From Porticoccaceae bacterium (lineage in GTDB: Bacteria > Pseudomonadota > Gammaproteobacteria > Pseudomonadales > Porticoccaceae), in assembly GCA_002720735.1 (NCBI GenBank), contig PBJN01000020.1, forward strand, positions 33,904 through 44,354: DNA of 10,451 nucleotides. Reading direction: 5' to 3'. Position numbers and translations under genes: made by a program. Below, in pieces: positions 4,984-10,451 of the stretch (the stretch's first letter is position 1; each line of letters starts with the position of its first letter). The notes below the pieces were generated by a model. It was not told the origin of the DNA. It made no database searches and worked only from the letters and a program-made list of their open reading frames with translations.

Positions 4984-5601
4984 TCATTCTTTTAATAACA
5001 TCCCCTCATTAATAATAAAATTTATAATTTCTGGAAGCCCTTCTCCGCTTTTTAAATTAGAAAAGACAAATGGTTCAGCATTTCTCATTCGCTTAGCATC
5101 CCGATCCATAACATCCAGGGATGCGCCTACATAAGGCGCGAGATCAGTTTTGTTTATTATTAGCAAATCTGATTTTGTAATTCCAGGACCACCCTTTCTT
5201 GGTATTTTATCACCGGCTGATACATCAATTACATATAAAGTCAAATCAGATAATTCTGGAGAAAAAGTTGCACTCAAATTGTCACCACCACTTTCAATAA
5301 AAATTATATCCAAACTTTTATGACGAACTCCCAGTAACTCAACAGCCGCAAGGTTCATAGACGCATCTTCTCGGATTGCAGTATGAGGACAGCCCCCTGT
5401 TTCTACTCCTAAAATCCTGTCTGCACTAAGTGCTTCATGCTTAGTCAGGAAATCAGCGTCCTCTTTAGTGTAGATATCATTTGTTACTACTGCGATCTCA
5501 TATTGAGAGCGCAAACTTATACAAAGCGCCCTTAGGAGCGCGGTTTTTCCCGACCCTACCGGCCCTCCGACACCGACTCGCAAAGTTTGTTTATCCTCCA
5601 T
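4984..5601 (-). CDS. ureG: Urease accessory GTPase UreG
   Basis: UreG is a SIMIBI-class GTPase that carries nickel and drives its insertion into apo-urease together with UreD, UreF and UreE. The 205 residues match the family length. The P-loop GPVGSGKT is at residues 13-20. The nickel-binding CPH motif is Cys71-Pro-His73 in [31 protein letters not shown] is the switch-like block, and the NKTD guanine-specificity motif follows TKSDLLI. I chose the ATG at 5601 because it is preceded by AAAGGAG at 5 nt and gives the usual N-terminus. The open frame extends 18 codons upstream to 5655 inside ureF, but without family similarity. The His-rich N-terminal stretch found in some UreG proteins is absent. 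It is the last gene of the operon, starts 10 bp after the ureF stop, and ends 44 bp from the convergent sensor gene with no clear terminator. Confidence 0.97.
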
Positions 5602-5606
5602 GTTAA

Positions 5607-5613
5607 CTCCTTT
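5607..5613 (-). promoter_or_regulatory. Ribosome binding site of ureG
   Basis: AAAGGAG on the minus strand lies 5 nt before the ATG at 5601 and overlaps the ureF stop codon (5614-5612). It decides the ureG start against the 18-codon longer frame and suggests that ureF and ureG translation are coupled. Confidence 0.75.
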
Positions 5614-6286
5614 AAGATCTAAATAACCGAGTGTATTGCGTTTCATGTAAAGCACTTGCCATCGCTAATCCAGGCAGAGAACTCCCGATTTCTGCATCAC
5701 TTGCAGACTGAGAAGCACTAACTGCACCCGGAATCATACCAATCAAATCATCCAATATACGTTGCGCTGCACTTTGTCCAAGTGGAAGTAATTTTGTGGC
5801 TGCAGCTACTTGATTTTCCATCCAAGACCACACGAACCCATGGCAAGCTACTCTTACATCGATCTTCCAAAAAGAAACCGCGAATGCATAAGCTGCTACA
5901 AAAGTCAAAGATTCTTTTGGAGCAGTGCCCTGACAAACCTTTATGCCTTTAAGTAGTTTAACAAGCGCTTTTCCTGTCGCTATTTCCGCTTCGCGTAATT
6001 CCAGCGTCTCACGACAAGCTAGCACATGCAAATTCCAATACCTCACGCCCTTGAAATCATGGGTTTTAAACGCTTCAACAAGACGAATTAGTAATGGTAA
6101 ATCAGTCTTCGCTATGGCATGCTCTAACACAGTTGCGATCCAATCGCGGACATCAGAAGAATTTCTCAACCAATGTTTCTCTATCGCAAATTCAAGACCT
6201 TGAGAAAAGGAGTATCCGCCGACTGGCAAAGCGGAACTGCTGAGTTGGAGTATTCGCAGTAATCCCAGATCAGATAATGCGTTCAT
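5612..6286 (-). CDS. ureF: Urease accessory protein UreF
   Basis: UreF is the helical accessory protein that bridges UreD and UreG in the urease activation complex and controls the GTPase step of nickel transfer. The 224 residues are the usual family length. The N-terminal family signature [20 protein letters not shown], followed by QGLE, is at about residues 9-32. The middle region TDLPLL and the block [17 protein letters not shown] match the family, and the C-terminal region carries [12 protein letters not shown]. Its start overlaps the end of ureE by 17 bp, and no strong Shine-Dalgarno precedes it, so it is probably translated by coupling with ureE. It is followed closely by ureG, as in most ureEFG clusters. 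Confidence 0.96.
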
Positions 6287-6722
6287 GATTTTTTACGTGT
6301 TTGTACGCGCCTTGTTCTGGAACAAAAGCCGCTTTTTCGTGTTTCAAAGCCATGTTCAACCCTATGAGCATTTCTTCTAGAACATGATCGGGCAATATCC
6401 TTAGCCACTTTTCACCTATTTGAACTTTCACATGCCTGTTCCCAAGATGGTAGCAAGCCTTGCTAAACTGACTCCAATCGTCTGTCGAGGCTCTAACCAC
6501 ATCCTCTTTTTTTGCGGTTACTAAAAGAACTCTCCCGCACCTGCTAATCAATGCATCACCGACCTTGAGTACGTTCCCTCGCTCCAAAAAAAATCCAACT
6601 GCCTCTCCTGTGAAAATGGCCGTTTTAAACCGACCCTTTTCTCGCTGCAAATGACAAAGTTCTACCTCCCCATAAATATCGAGCCCCGTTGCAGATGACA
6701 GTCGTTGGTAGATTTCTAACAT
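6270..6722 (-). CDS. ureE: Urease nickel metallochaperone UreE
   Basis: UreE is a dimeric nickel chaperone that hands Ni to UreG for urease maturation. The 150-residue protein has an N-terminal peptide-binding-like domain (about 1-75, with the TAIFTGEAVGFFLERG block) and a C-terminal metal-binding domain (about 76-150). The latter carries ACYHLGNRHVKVQIG, where His97 corresponds to the dimer-interface nickel ligand (His96 in Klebsiella), and the DHVLEEML helix. The extra His pair before DHVL in Klebsiella UreE is replaced by Leu-Pro here. The typical C-terminal His-rich tail is reduced to [13 protein letters not shown], with only two His. It starts 13 bp after the ureC stop with a poor Shine-Dalgarno, and it overlaps ureF by 17 bp. 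Confidence 0.95.
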   Translation of the reverse strand: MLEIYQRLSSATGLDIYGEVELCHLQREKGRFKTAIFTGEAVGFFLERGNVLKVGDALISRCGRVLLVTAKKEDVVRASTDDWSQFSKACYHLGNRHVKVQIGEKWLRILPDHVLEEMLIGLNMALKHEKAAFVPEQGAYKHVKNHERII

Positions 6723-6735
6723 CGAGGTCCGAAAA

Positions 6736-8439
6736 CTAAAATAAGTTGTAAAGTTGAGTCAGCGGAAGTACTTTTGCCGGCTCGCAGGTCATTAATAATC
6801 CATCCGCATGAACTTCGTAAGTCTGAGGATCCACGGTGACGTTAGGCATCCATGCGTTATGAATCATGTTTCGCTTGGTAATTGATCGAGTGTTTCTGCA
6901 TGCCACGAGCCGGCGAGAAAGATCTAACTTCTTTCCAAGACCATCCTCTACGGCCATTTTTGAAGTGAAAGTAACACATGTTTGCGACGGAGCCTTCCCA
7001 TAACTCCCAAACATCTTCCTGAAATGCACTGGCTGCGGTGTTGGGATTGATGCATTTGGATCACCCATTGGAGCCGCAGCAATTATCCCTCCCTTAATAA
7101 TCAGTGTGGGCTTAGTCCCAAAAAAAGCCGGTTTCCATAGCACAAGATCTGCGAGCTTCCCGACTTCGACAGAACCGATCTCATGATCAATACCATGAGT
7201 TATGGCCGGATTGATAGTATATTTTGCAATGTAACGCTTGGCTCGAAAATTATCCATTTTTTCATTATCTTGATCTAAAGCCCCCCGCTGGACCTTCATT
7301 TTATGAGCCGTTTGCCAAGTACGTGTAATCACCTCTCCAACTCGACCCATTGCTTGAGAATCCGAAGCAATCATACTGAAAGCTCCAAGATCATGAAAAA
7401 TATCCTCTGCCGCTATTGTCTCTTTCCGGATGCGCGAGTCCGCAAATGCTATGTCCTCAGGAATGGATGAGTCTAAATGATGACACACCATCAACATGTC
7501 CAGATGCTCGTCAATAGTGTTTACAGTGTATGGACGCGTTGGATTAGTGGATGAGGGTAAAACATTCAACTCCGCACAAGCTCGAATAATATCAGGGGCA
7601 TGTCCGCCGCCGGCACCCTCTGTATGATAGGTGTGAATTGCCCGTCCTTTAAAGGCCGCGATGGTGTCATCGACAAATCCCGACTCATTCAGGGTATCAG
7701 TATGTATAGCAACCTGTACATCATTTGTTTCCGCCACACTGAGACAATTGTCAATGGATGCCGGCGTAGTTCCCCAATCCTCATGTAATTTTAGACCACA
7801 TGCTCCAGCTAAGAGCTGCTCCTCCAGCGCAATGGGTATGCTAGCGTTACCTTTTCCCAAAAATCCTAAATTCATTGGCATATCATCAGTAGCTTGTAAC
7901 ATCTTGCCAATATTCCAAGGTCCGGGTGTACACGTTGTAGCATTGGTTCCTGTGGCCGGCCCTGTTCCACCACCAATCATGGTAGTAATACCCGACATAA
8001 GAGCCTCCTCAATTTGTTGAGGACAAATAAAGTGGATATGCGCATCCACGCCGCCAGGGGTCAAAATCAAACCCTCGCCTGCTATAACTTCAGTGCCAGG
8101 CCCAATAATGACCGACACGTTATCCTGAATATCTGGATTACCCGCTTTTCCTATGGCAGCGATTCTTCCATGATTTATGCCGACATCCGCCTTAACAATA
8201 CCCCAATGATCTAAAATCAGAGCGTTCGTTATTACTACATCGACAGACTCACTGCAACTGTGTTGGCTTTGCCCCATGCCGTCTCGAATGACTTTTCCCC
8301 CACCGAACTTTACTTCCTCTCCGTAGCAAGTGAAGTCTTCCTCTACCTCAATAATAAGCTCTGTGTCTCCCAAACGAACTCGATCACCCTTTGTGGGACC
8401 AAACATGGAAGCATAGGCTTTGCGATCAATACTAATCAT
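6736..8439 (-). CDS. ureC: Urease alpha (large catalytic) subunit UreC
   Basis: UreC holds the di-nickel site that hydrolyses urea to ammonia and carbamate in the cytoplasm. The 567 residues equal the length of the Klebsiella subunit, and every active-site residue falls at the same number. They are His134 and His136 (DAHIHF), the carbamylated Lys217 and His219 (GLKLHEDWG), His246, His272, flap Cys319 and His320 (MVCHHL), Arg336 and Asp360 ([11 protein letters not shown]). The enzyme should therefore be active once matured. I chose the ATG at 8439, giving [20 protein letters not shown], since an ideal AAGGAGGTGG precedes it. The frame extends 27 codons further to 8520, but into ureB and without similarity. 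The start overlaps ureB by 8 bp. It ends with LTQLYNLF, followed by ureE after 13 bp. Confidence 0.99.
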
Positions 8440-8755
8440 TTTCCACCTCCTTAAGAGAACCCATAATCTCTCCCCGAAACCCGAAAACATTCCGCGTTCC
8501 AGCAAGAGAAACAAGTTCAATTTCCCTAACCTGCCCTGGTTCGAACCGAACCGCAGTGCCCGACGCGATATTCAAACGAAAGCCGCGCGCTCTGATTCGA
8601 TCAAACTTTAGTGCGGGGTTCACCTCATAAAAATGATAGTGCGAGCCAACCTGAACCGGTCGATCTCCCACATTAGCCACCTCTAATTCAATTGTGTCCC
8701 TATTTTGATTGATCAGAATAGAGCCGCTGCTTACAAAAACTTCACCAGGAATCAT
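8432..8755 (-). CDS. ureB: Urease beta subunit UreB
   Basis: UreB is a small structural subunit of the UreABC trimer of trimers. The 107 residues show the family start MIPGEVF, then the [20 protein letters not shown] block (about 28-47), [25 protein letters not shown] (52-76), and the near-terminal GFRGEIMG. The subunits are separate, as in most proteobacteria, not fused to UreA as in Helicobacter. The ATG at 8755 has a GAGG 8 nt upstream. The gene follows ureA by 19 bp and overlaps ureC by 8 bp. Confidence 0.98.
8443..8452 (-). promoter_or_regulatory. Strong ribosome binding site of ureC
   Basis: AAGGAGGTGG on the minus strand is a near-perfect Shine-Dalgarno, with its AGGAGG core 6 nt before the ATG at 8439. 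It lies inside the ureB coding sequence. It fixes the UreC start at MISIDRK and rules out the 27-codon extension. Confidence 0.85.
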
Positions 8756-8774
8756 ATCAATTACCTCATCGGTT

Positions 8775-9077
8775 CTAATTTATAGGGTCATGCACCGTGA
8801 CTAACTTTGTGCCATCTGGAAATGTTGCCTCTACTTGGACCTCTGAAACAAGTTCCGCTACACCATCCATCACCTGATCACTTCTTAAAATATTCTTTCC
8901 GTCACTCATCAACTGAGCAACGGACTTCCCATCCCTAGCTCCCTCAACAATTGCCATAGAAATATAAGCAACAGCCTCGGGATAGTTAAGTTTTAGTCCG
9001 CGACCGAGCCGTCTTTCAGCAAGAAGGGCCGCGGTGAAAGTGATTAATTTATCCTTTTCTCTGGGCAGTAATTCCAT
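8775..9077 (-). CDS. ureA: Urease gamma subunit UreA
   Basis: UreA is the smallest structural subunit of urease. The 100 residues are the standard length and show the family start [11 protein letters not shown], then [22 protein letters not shown] (14-35), [15 protein letters not shown] (43-57), and the C-terminal [20 protein letters not shown]. An AAGGAGTGAG sequence lies a few bases before the ATG. It begins 25 bp after the ureD stop and precedes ureB by 19 bp, in a single operon. Confidence 0.98.
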
Positions 9078-9102: not shown

Positions 9103-9978
9103 TTAGGTTAGCCAAATTCGCGGTTCACAAAATTCGCGTAGCATTAGAATTGGCCTTGCTAACTTCCACCAGTTCACAAATATTTTTTTAGCATGCTCCG
9201 CACTGTTTCCGAGGTAGCGTCCGATTAGAAAATTTCCAACCCGCGATATAGACATTAAATGAGGAGACTTAGCCATAAATTCAATCTCACGCATCCTTGA
9301 TATTATAGAATCCGCACCATCAACAAAAGGTCCAAGTATGAGGAATCCCGACACCATAAAGCCTTGCAACCCCGCAGGCTTTGAAAGAAGTGAGTTTTCC
9401 TGGTCACACAACTCGAGTCGATCCACATATACAGGCATGCCATCCTTCTGGAGAACATATTTTTGTTTAAAACTTCCCAAGTCAAAACCTGAAAAAGAGG
9501 CAGGCATGCCCAGTGAGCATATATCCCAACCTGCGAAACAACTCCCTTCTGACAAATTTATTTTAGTTGAAATTTGTGAACACGCACCGCTAAAAACGAT
9601 CGTTTCTAATGGAAACCACTCCACCATGGCGTTAGCTCCAATGGTCAAGTCAAATACTACTCGCTGAACCGATACATCCTTCCGAGCCCTATATATCCTG
9701 GAGGCTCCGGGTGTAGTTAAAAAGACTCCCGCGTTTTCTCCGACATCAACACTTATTCTAAGATGATCGCCAGAAACAATTCCACCCGGGGGATGCAACA
9801 GATAAACATGTGCATGCTCTAAACCCTCCGGATAAAACAATTTCTGCACATAAAGGGGGCCCTTATGTACACTCTTGATCAAACGAGTCTTCTTGCCAGG
9901 CATGTCAAAGGTAAGACCTAAGTATGCCGGCCATATTTTAGAGCCATCTGAAGAGCAGCTCTCTAATTCAGTCAACAT
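9103..9978 (-). CDS. ureD: Urease accessory protein UreD (UreH)
   Basis: UreD forms the scaffold on which UreF and UreG dock to apo-urease, and it contains the nickel tunnel in the UreDFG complex. The 291 residues are of usual length. The family blocks are [20 protein letters not shown] (about 33-52), [20 protein letters not shown] (59-78), [13 protein letters not shown] (86-98), and [12 protein letters not shown] (120-131). UreD sequences are among the most variable in the operon, and this one fits the pattern throughout. The ATG at 9978 overlaps the end of the preceding small membrane protein gene by 11 bp. I see no Shine-Dalgarno, so translation is probably coupled to that gene. Confidence 0.96.
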
Positions 9979-10222
9979 AAAAGCACTTGTCTAATTTGAG
10001 ACACTGAAACGCTCGTTGTCGTATCCTCGCATGCATAAGCGCTGCCCAGATTGCAGTTAAACCAACAATCAGTATCTCCCCTAAGTGCAGAAAATCGAAG
10101 AGAAAATGGACGCCAACACTCATATTGTTCCACGTATGAACCCCGTCGTGAGCTAATAAAGTCCCACTACCCAATACGACCATCACCAAAACTATCGACC
10201 TGACAAGATTTTTACAAGTCAT
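9968..10222 (-). CDS. Small His-containing membrane protein between urtE and ureD, function unknown
   Basis: I do not recognise this 84-residue protein with certainty. It has a strong Shine-Dalgarno (AAAGGAGGA, 8 nt before the ATG) and is translationally locked into the operon, overlapping ureD by 11 bp, so it is almost surely real. The N-terminus looks like a signal peptide: Lys4 and Arg8, a hydrophobic core at 9-21, and a likely cut after LLA at residue 24, which would leave His25 as the mature N-terminus. Then come HDGVHTW, GVHFLFDFLHLGE (37-49) and one membrane segment (about 46-64, GEILIVGLTAIWAALM), followed by a basic tail (HARIRQR) with Cys74 and Cys80. The order AH-x-G, then a His, then LH and a GL-x-A-x-WAAL helix recalls the start of HupE/UreJ nickel permeases. 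Those are about twice as long, however, so this is only a resemblance. A nickel, urea or urease-linked membrane role is inferred from position. Confidence 0.8.
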   Translation of the reverse strand: MTCKNLVRSIVLVMVVLGSGTLLAHDGVHTWNNMSVGVHFLFDFLHLGEILIVGLTAIWAALMHARIRQRAFQCLKLDKCFYVD

Positions 10223-10230
10223 TTTTAATG

Positions 10231-10239
10231 TCCTCCTTT
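10231..10239 (-). promoter_or_regulatory. Ribosome binding site of the small membrane protein gene
   Basis: AAAGGAGGA on the minus strand is a near-consensus Shine-Dalgarno, 8 nt from the ATG at 10222. It lies in the 40 bp gap after urtE. It is good evidence that the 84-codon frame is translated. Confidence 0.75.
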
Positions 10240-10262
10240 AAAGATTAGGTATTTTATTTAAT

Positions 10263-10451
10263 TCAGACCGCCAAGTGTTGTGAGATTAAATCATCACTTA
10301 ACTCCGTCATTCGACCCGATGCCACAATCCGACCTTTTTCCATCAAACGGAACTCTTTACCAACTTTTCTAGCAAAAGAGATTTTCTGCTCTACGAGGAG
10401 AACTGTTATTCCCTCAGTCTTATTCAAATATGTTATGACTCGTCCAATTTC
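10263..10451 (-). CDS. urtE: Urea ABC transporter ATP-binding protein UrtE, C-terminal part (cut by window edge)
   Basis: UrtE is one of the two ATPases (with UrtD) that power the high-affinity urea importer UrtABCDE at the inner membrane. Only the last 62 codons lie in the window. The translation contains EIGRVITYLNKTEGITVLLVEQ, then KISFARKVGKEFRLMEKGRI and VASGRMTELSDDLISQHLAV. The LLVEQ block is the H-loop region of the branched-chain amino acid/urea ABC family, with Gln in the LivF-like position, and RLMEKGRIVASG is the end of the nucleotide-binding domain. The C-terminal HLAV is typical of UrtE. The adjacent urease operon supports urea over amino acids as substrate. The Walker A and signature motifs lie outside the window. 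The small membrane protein gene begins 40 bp downstream with no terminator in between, so the transporter and urease genes are likely on one transcript. Confidence 0.9.
   Translation of the reverse strand, partial: EIGRVITYLNKTEGITVLLVEQKISFARKVGKEFRLMEKGRIVASGRMTELSDDLISQHLAV

Follow-up and report, generated by a model that had tools for sequence, protein, structure and literature searches.

A small gene overlapping ureD in a Porticoccaceae bacterium probably encodes a divergent mini-HupE/UreJ protein

The window, by which we mean the whole stretch of 10,451 nucleotides analysed here (G000:C38:33904-44354), comes from a 2.1 Mb Porticoccaceae genome that is 97% complete. On its minus strand the end of urtE is followed by a small ORF, ureD and further urease genes. 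The Ure names were confirmed by Pfam, and the Urt names were given by eye and by mutual blast. The features are listed below, where "minis" are short one-helix proteins related to HupE/UreJ.

10263..10451, minus strand: 3′ end of urtE, running off the window (name by eye)
10231..10238, minus strand: Shine-Dalgarno sequence AAGGAGGA (from the sequence)
9968..10222, minus strand: mini-HupE/UreJ-like ORF of 84 aa (from the sequence, homologues and profile matches)
10151..10222, minus strand: codons 1-24, signal-peptide-like, ending LLA before H25 (from the sequence, aligned with 29 minis)
10082..10150, minus strand: codons 25-47, histidine segment H25-x3-H29-x9-H39-x6-H46-L, predicted to be periplasmic and at the mouth of the membrane (from conservation, spacing shuffles and alignment)
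10031..10081, minus strand: codons 48-64, a single putative membrane helix (from the sequence and the AF2 helix 44-81)
9971..10030, minus strand: codons 65-84, basic tail with C74 and C80 (from the sequence)
9968..9978, minus strand: 11-base overlap of the ORF end with the ureD start (from the sequence; the same in 5 of 6 genomes)
9103..9978, minus strand: ureD (Pfam PF01774, 148 bits)
4984..9077, minus strand: ureA, ureB, ureC, ureE, ureF and ureG (Pfam families of each)

The 84-residue ORF had been proposed, with its strand left unspecified, in a first-pass annotation that also described a strong ribosome binding site and an overlap with ureD. All three were confirmed on the minus strand: the GGAGG core of AAGGAGGA lies 9 bases upstream of the ATG, the ORF begins 40 bases after the urtE stop, and its last 11 bases are shared with ureD. 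Read on the plus strand, the same stretch is interrupted by stops. No promoter- or terminator-like sites were found in 9900-10451, and since only 1.1 and 0.2 would be expected by chance, this absence is weak evidence for co-transcription. Inspection by eye agreed with the likely signal peptide described before His25, which ends in ...GTLLA, and with one further membrane helix, represented by a hydrophobic segment after the signal peptide. The five histidines counted between residues 25 and 46 were in fact four (H25, H29, H39 and H46), the fifth being H64. The basic tail does carry two cysteines (Cys74 and Cys80), to which a third outside the tail (Cys3) must be added.

Homologues were searched for in 58 genomes, the organism's own included, at a threshold of E < 1e-20. 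Six of them, belonging to a single genus, encoded the ORF, in each case at the urtE-ureD junction, the five other homologues being 53-92% identical to it; named relatives among those encoding it are Porticoccaceae bacterium AG-907-E05 and the Cellvibrionales MAG UBA1854. UreD was present in 24 of the 58 genomes and in 7 of the 14 from the same genus (own included). The survey of urtE-ureD junctions suggested by the first-pass annotation revealed a small gene there in all seven same-genus ureD genomes, belonging to the ORF family in six. In the seventh (G004) a different small gene fills the slot, directly after urtE at the end of contig C48, and the junction rests on 55 identical bases shared between the C48 end and the start of the ureD-bearing contig C18. 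This gene matched a mini profile at E 3.5e-9 and has the same histidine spacing as the ORF. The ORF is a real gene, and its homologues at the same junction make it more than a chance reading frame.

Across 11 aligned sequences of the ORF family, 27 of 84 columns were invariant, including H25, D26, G27, H29, W31, H39, F40 and E49, and H46 was replaced by Tyr in two of the six genomes. The dN/dS ratio between two sub-clades was 0.33-0.53 for the ORF compared with 0.09-0.16 for ureD, and inside the G009/G012/G002 sub-clade it was 0.57-1.36 for the ORF, indicating that constraint on the gene is present but loose; the G002 copy is six codons shorter at its 3′ end. When 5.8 billion proteins were searched with the single ORF sequence, six close relatives emerged, and no annotation went further than 'hypothetical protein'. 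One database protein (P0006) consists of an ORF-family sequence that ends in CLLYTSDAADE, which looks like translated sequencing-adapter sequence; it is therefore probably an artefact and was excluded from the alignments.

A Pfam HupE_UreJ profile search had been suggested for the ORF. This profile (PF04955) did not match the ORF or any of the 11 aligned family members at E ≤ 10, and Pfam and NCBIfam scans of the ORF gave nothing above threshold. DUF6488 (PF20098) scored 13.8 bits against a cut-off of 27, and DUF6732 (PF20506) was absent from the Pfam matches of the ORF. Weak matches to DUF6488, UL2 and Gram_pos_anchor were set aside as signal-peptide or helix likenesses. No relatives of the ORF were found in viral contigs or PDB sequences, and a search of plasmids with one mini found none.

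Because the ORF has no direct Pfam HupE_UreJ match, its link to HupE/UreJ goes through intermediates. A PF04955 search of relatives identified a HupE-like gene of 143 aa in G019, divergent from ureD, and a 76-codon frame following ureG in G043, an Endozoicomonas protein named 'HupE/UreJ family protein' by NCBI and scoring 23.6 against a Pfam cut-off of 23. A profile of the G043 protein found matches in 12 of 369 genomes of the class, some of them directly after the [NiFe] hydrogenase large subunit. Six minis scanned with Pfam HupE_UreJ gave three matches above the cut-off, two below it and one protein without a match. Among 3,193 candidates, profile A4, made of ten minis, picked out 252 protein clusters at E ≤ 10; the top 120 comprised 22 with a HupE-type name, 17 called 'hypothetical protein' and 81 unnamed. 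Over most of its length the ORF can be aligned with a broad set of short HupE/UreJ-related proteins.

Pairwise and small-profile comparisons of the ORF with the minis were suggestive, and the link became clear only with a broader mini set. Profile A3 in its first test on the ORF gave a moderate result (P 1.1e-4), with a real score of 26.75 against 26.4 for the best of 200 within-segment shuffles; when the test was restricted to the mature part, 12 or more of 200 shuffles did equally well. When profiles A3, A4 and A5 were run against the organism's own genome, the ORF was not among the hits; its detection may have failed at the initial word-matching step. When the 3,582 ORFs from the fetched loci were searched by hmmsearch with an HMM built from 44 one-helix 'mini-HupE/UreJ' proteins, the window family being excluded, the ORF scored 25.0 bits and E 2.9e-6. 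Within its six-member family, E was ≤ 7.4e-5 for four proteins and 0.019 and 0.046 for the other two, which were intermixed with an exported ORF of another type (E 0.022), plain noise starting at 0.16. Among 5,739 ORFs, two models placed the ORF at E 4.7e-6 and 1.3e-5 and the two weak members at 0.03-0.07 and 0.12-0.87, one of them (E 0.87 with the second model) ranking amid the noise. When the ORF family was compared by hhalign with profile A5 (34 minis), the result was 94.5% with E 7.4e-8 for a single comparison.

Shuffling was used to locate the source of this likeness. When the signal peptide and H25 were kept fixed and all other residues were permuted segment by segment, the real score of three members was attained in 1, 0 and 0 of 1,000 trials. 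With an HMM of the mature part, 196, 61 and 11 of 1,000 shuffles were as good for three members and the ORF was not detected; without bias correction the counts were 89, 41, 11 and 65 of 1,000 for four members. The mature-part likeness is thus no better than chance for the ORF and near significance for two relatives, indicating that much of the match lies in the signal peptide and the histidine pattern in register. The spacing H-x3-H-x(8,10)-H-x6-H turned up 72 times when the mature part, apart from a fixed H25, was shuffled 200,000 times. In an alignment of 37 sequences (29 of them minis) that left out the two Tyr46 members, A24, H25, H39 and H46 were invariant.

Two other small exported proteins surfaced in these searches. 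A 61-aa signal-peptide-HSGH one-helix ORF in the urease region of G055 (L057:1058-1243) reached E 1.2e-4 with the mini HMM and may be a mini. An exported peptide of 44 aa that is rich in Cys and His (signal, HSGGCRKD...CCHAGSKPYHCH) occurs repeatedly in Porticoccaceae (L155, L156, L157 and L159) and matches the mini profile, apparently via its signal peptide.

The mini-HupE/UreJ group, as defined here, comprises short proteins with a signal peptide, a mature start at AH, H-x6-H, one helix and a basic tail. The ORF fits this definition, AH and H-x6-H being found in 37/37 aligned sequences, and through its overlap with ureD it also shares the adjacency to nickel-enzyme genes. Instead of forming a family of its own, as had been entertained, it aligns with this broad set. 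AF2 modelling gave a mean pLDDT of 60 (poor) with the close family alone and 75 with minis in the alignment, a gain that any deeper alignment may bring. The latter model has helices at 3-27, 33-42 and 44-81, a break between H39 and H46 and a block of pLDDT 91-92 at residues 51-70.

To survey where minis occur, profile A5 was run against 390 genomes of the order, frames of ≤ 140 aa being counted as short. Among the matches listed there were 56 short frames in 54 genomes and 76 longer frames, the latter largely N-termini of full-length HupE. The 56 short frames alone were used as the survey because several other loci (most of L226-L236, plus L237-L244) had been chosen for nearness to UreD. Each of them was inspected in its fetched locus: 34 adjoin ure genes, two (G106 and G185) neighbour a gene similar to the G457 hydrogenase maturation protease, 19 lie elsewhere and one (G315) is a full-length HupE truncated where its contig ends. 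Within the 34, 24 have UreD listed within 15 kb and in ten its place is distant or not listed; G004 was counted here through the contig overlap. 'Elsewhere' means no blast match within 1.5 kb to urease, hydrogenase large-subunit, cytochrome b, protease or HupE references. All 19 such frames read AH[PAS][GS]HDH, a separate subtype, one example of which lies in a region with the cobalamin genes CobS and CobO; once the subtype is set aside, a separation made after the contexts had been seen, the remaining 36 true minis all adjoin nickel-enzyme genes.

The position of minis within these operons varies. They lie between ureE and ureF (e.g. G032, G251, G208, G359 and G229), after ureG (e.g. G043, G050, G415 and G287) or directly after the hydrogenase large subunit (G488, G538, G632 and G772, with Pfam NiFeSe_Hases for G488), a place held by full-length HupE in G470, G617 and G478. 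Among the matches listed, UreD was located in 150 of the 202 UreD genomes, with a mini within 15 kb in 24, a full-length HupE, counted among the matches listed, within 8 kb in 37, and none with both; the hypergeometric probability of this mutual absence is 5.6e-4 when relatedness is ignored. The mini group is thus an under-described set of one-helix proteins associated with nickel enzymes.

Two other observations concerned size and sequence classes. In other Porticoccaceae (L061 (G019), L151 (G780), L154 (G789) and L158 (G786)), ureD has a divergently oriented neighbour, a half-size HupE-like gene of 133-149 aa; such genes form a size class between minis and full-length HupE; shortening of full-length HupE was considered as the origin of the minis. 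An AHPGHDH..HW subtype of minis was represented by L201 (G182), with similar ones at L202, L204-L207, L216, L221 and L223; it lies beside genes of similar sizes, the loci other than L201 being compared by gene sizes only. The L201 neighbourhood includes the cobalamin genes CobS and CobO, which hints at a link of these minis to cobalt.

Full-length HupE/UreJ proteins have about 180-200 aa and several membrane helices, and an H-x5-D-H motif in the first helix is important; its letters are present in the full-length HupE of the hydrogenase loci. The ORF resembles HupE/UreJ (PF04955) in having a signal peptide, a mature protein that begins with His and a His-x6-His at the entrance to the first helix, and also in location, since HupE/UreJ genes also adjoin urease or [NiFe] hydrogenase. 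It differs in having 84 aa, with a signal-peptide helix and one long helix, so a single mature helix, in lacking the later motifs and a Pfam match, and in carrying Leu in place of the Asp before the second His. Its relatives have Ser, Pro or Val there, and 18 of 29 minis have Asp. The ORF is not a full HupE_UreJ member, as length, motif Asp and Pfam cut-off all fail.

Short Endozoicomonas proteins annotated as 'HupE/UreJ family protein' (P0007-P0013, 72-74 aa, with precomputed PF04955 in four of seven) share size, plan, His-x6-His and urease operon location with the ORF. However, they are only 27% identical to it over 59 columns, read PDH where it has FLH, and lie after ureG (G043, G194 and G215) instead of between urtE and ureD. 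CbtB, a small one-helix cobalt-transport partner with a His motif, is likewise built of one helix and a short His motif, but is absent from the Pfam matches of the ORF at E 10 and has different neighbours. The Anglerase domains Ang-1 and Ang-2, which are fused to HupE/UreJ-2 (PF13795), are exported, metal-binding domains with a mature N-terminal His, and their suggested role is to 'fish' metal ions on behalf of that permease (PMC12537917). By that account the Anglerase domain shares export and the N-terminal His with the ORF and is joined to a HupE/UreJ-type permease, although it is a beta-sandwich of about 175 residues whereas the ORF has a short His segment on one helix (PMC12537917). Our literature search, with supplements and most subscription journals outside it, found no paper on short HupE-like proteins and no nickel binding or transport assay of such a protein.

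On these grounds we favour, with a probability of about 0.6, the reading that the ORF is a divergent mini-HupE/UreJ member, a module akin to the N-terminus of HupE/UreJ that is anchored in the membrane and captures nickel in the periplasm. The minimal HupE/UreJ-like module proposed in the first-pass annotation is supported by the alignment to short HupE/UreJ-related proteins recurring beside urease and [NiFe]-hydrogenase genes. Its placement near the UreD tunnel is not supported; the histidines are predicted to be periplasmic, while UreD is cytoplasmic. The ORF would be the N-terminal HupE/UreJ module standing alone as a small gene. Its product would be exported, cleaved after the signal peptide and anchored in the inner membrane, and by analogy the free N-terminus with H25, together with H29, H39 and H46, may bind Ni2+ on the periplasmic side. 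The ion might then be handed to a permease, perhaps the unlinked HupE_UreJ_2 on contig C25 of the same genome, or pass through a pore lined by an ORF oligomer. If the ORF is co-transcribed with urease, co-production may raise nickel supply during urea use.

The organism's own genome was searched for four kinds of nickel gene, NicO, CbiM, HupE_UreJ and [NiFe] hydrogenase; NicO, CbiM and [NiFe] hydrogenase were not found, and one HupE_UreJ_2 permease gene was (L084:1264-2286, contig C25). Judged by eye, its product has an exported N-terminal domain with a His right after the signal peptide, and it adjoins a peptidyl-prolyl-isomerase-like gene.

The occurrence of minis and full-length HupE in equivalent places, and never together in the 150 located urease clusters among the matches listed, is what would be seen if minis were stand-alone minimal nickel permeases, copies of which assemble so that the His-x6-His helices line a pore and replace full-length HupE. 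The A5 profile also matches N-termini of full-length HupE frames, e.g. one of 193 aa at E 1.3e-11. Against this, a mini has one helix and one HupE motif only, and in the present genome the HupE_UreJ_2 permease could do the transport, so we regard a stand-alone permease as unlikely. Equally doubtful is its generalization, that one-helix HupE/UreJ versions of about 60-90 residues supply nickel in many urease and hydrogenase operons as an oligomeric His-lined pore.

Less probable still is convergence, in which an exported one-helix protein resembles the minis through signal peptide, His and helix while serving another role or urtE-ureD translational coupling. The mature part without significance on its own, the loose selection with C-terminal loss in G002, and other signal-peptide-H ORFs that reach E 1e-4 to 0.04 with the mini HMM all speak for it. 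The in-register shuffles that failed to match the real score, the hhalign E value, the rise in AF2 pLDDT (with the caveat given above) and the congener gene in G004, with the same His spacing in the same slot, argue for relatedness instead. A role as a small accessory to the UrtABCDE urea ABC transporter, e.g. as a stabilizer of its membrane subunits, would explain why the ORF and minis directly follow urtE in this genus and, in a window-like slot between a urtE-like gene and ureD, in G121, G184 and G249 of other families. Yet relatives occupy the ureE-ureF interval, follow ureG or neighbour hydrogenase genes, and G037, G040 and G049 have no ORF of at least 40 codons between the urtE-like gene and ureD. 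The suggested partnership with the urea transporter was dropped because relatives sit away from urt genes, and we consider an accessory role of this kind very improbable.

To our knowledge, the loading of urease by bacteria that live in nickel-poor seawater is poorly understood, and annotation can easily pass over small genes of ure operons as 'hypothetical'. Were the pore reading true, minis would be one of the smallest metal uptake systems and the window protein a fast-evolving marine branch of them. The mini group, associated with urease, [NiFe] hydrogenase and perhaps cobalamin genes, is a testable candidate for periplasmic nickel capture. It raises the question of whether HupE's first helix can function on its own, and it offers an annotation route for many unnamed small proteins.
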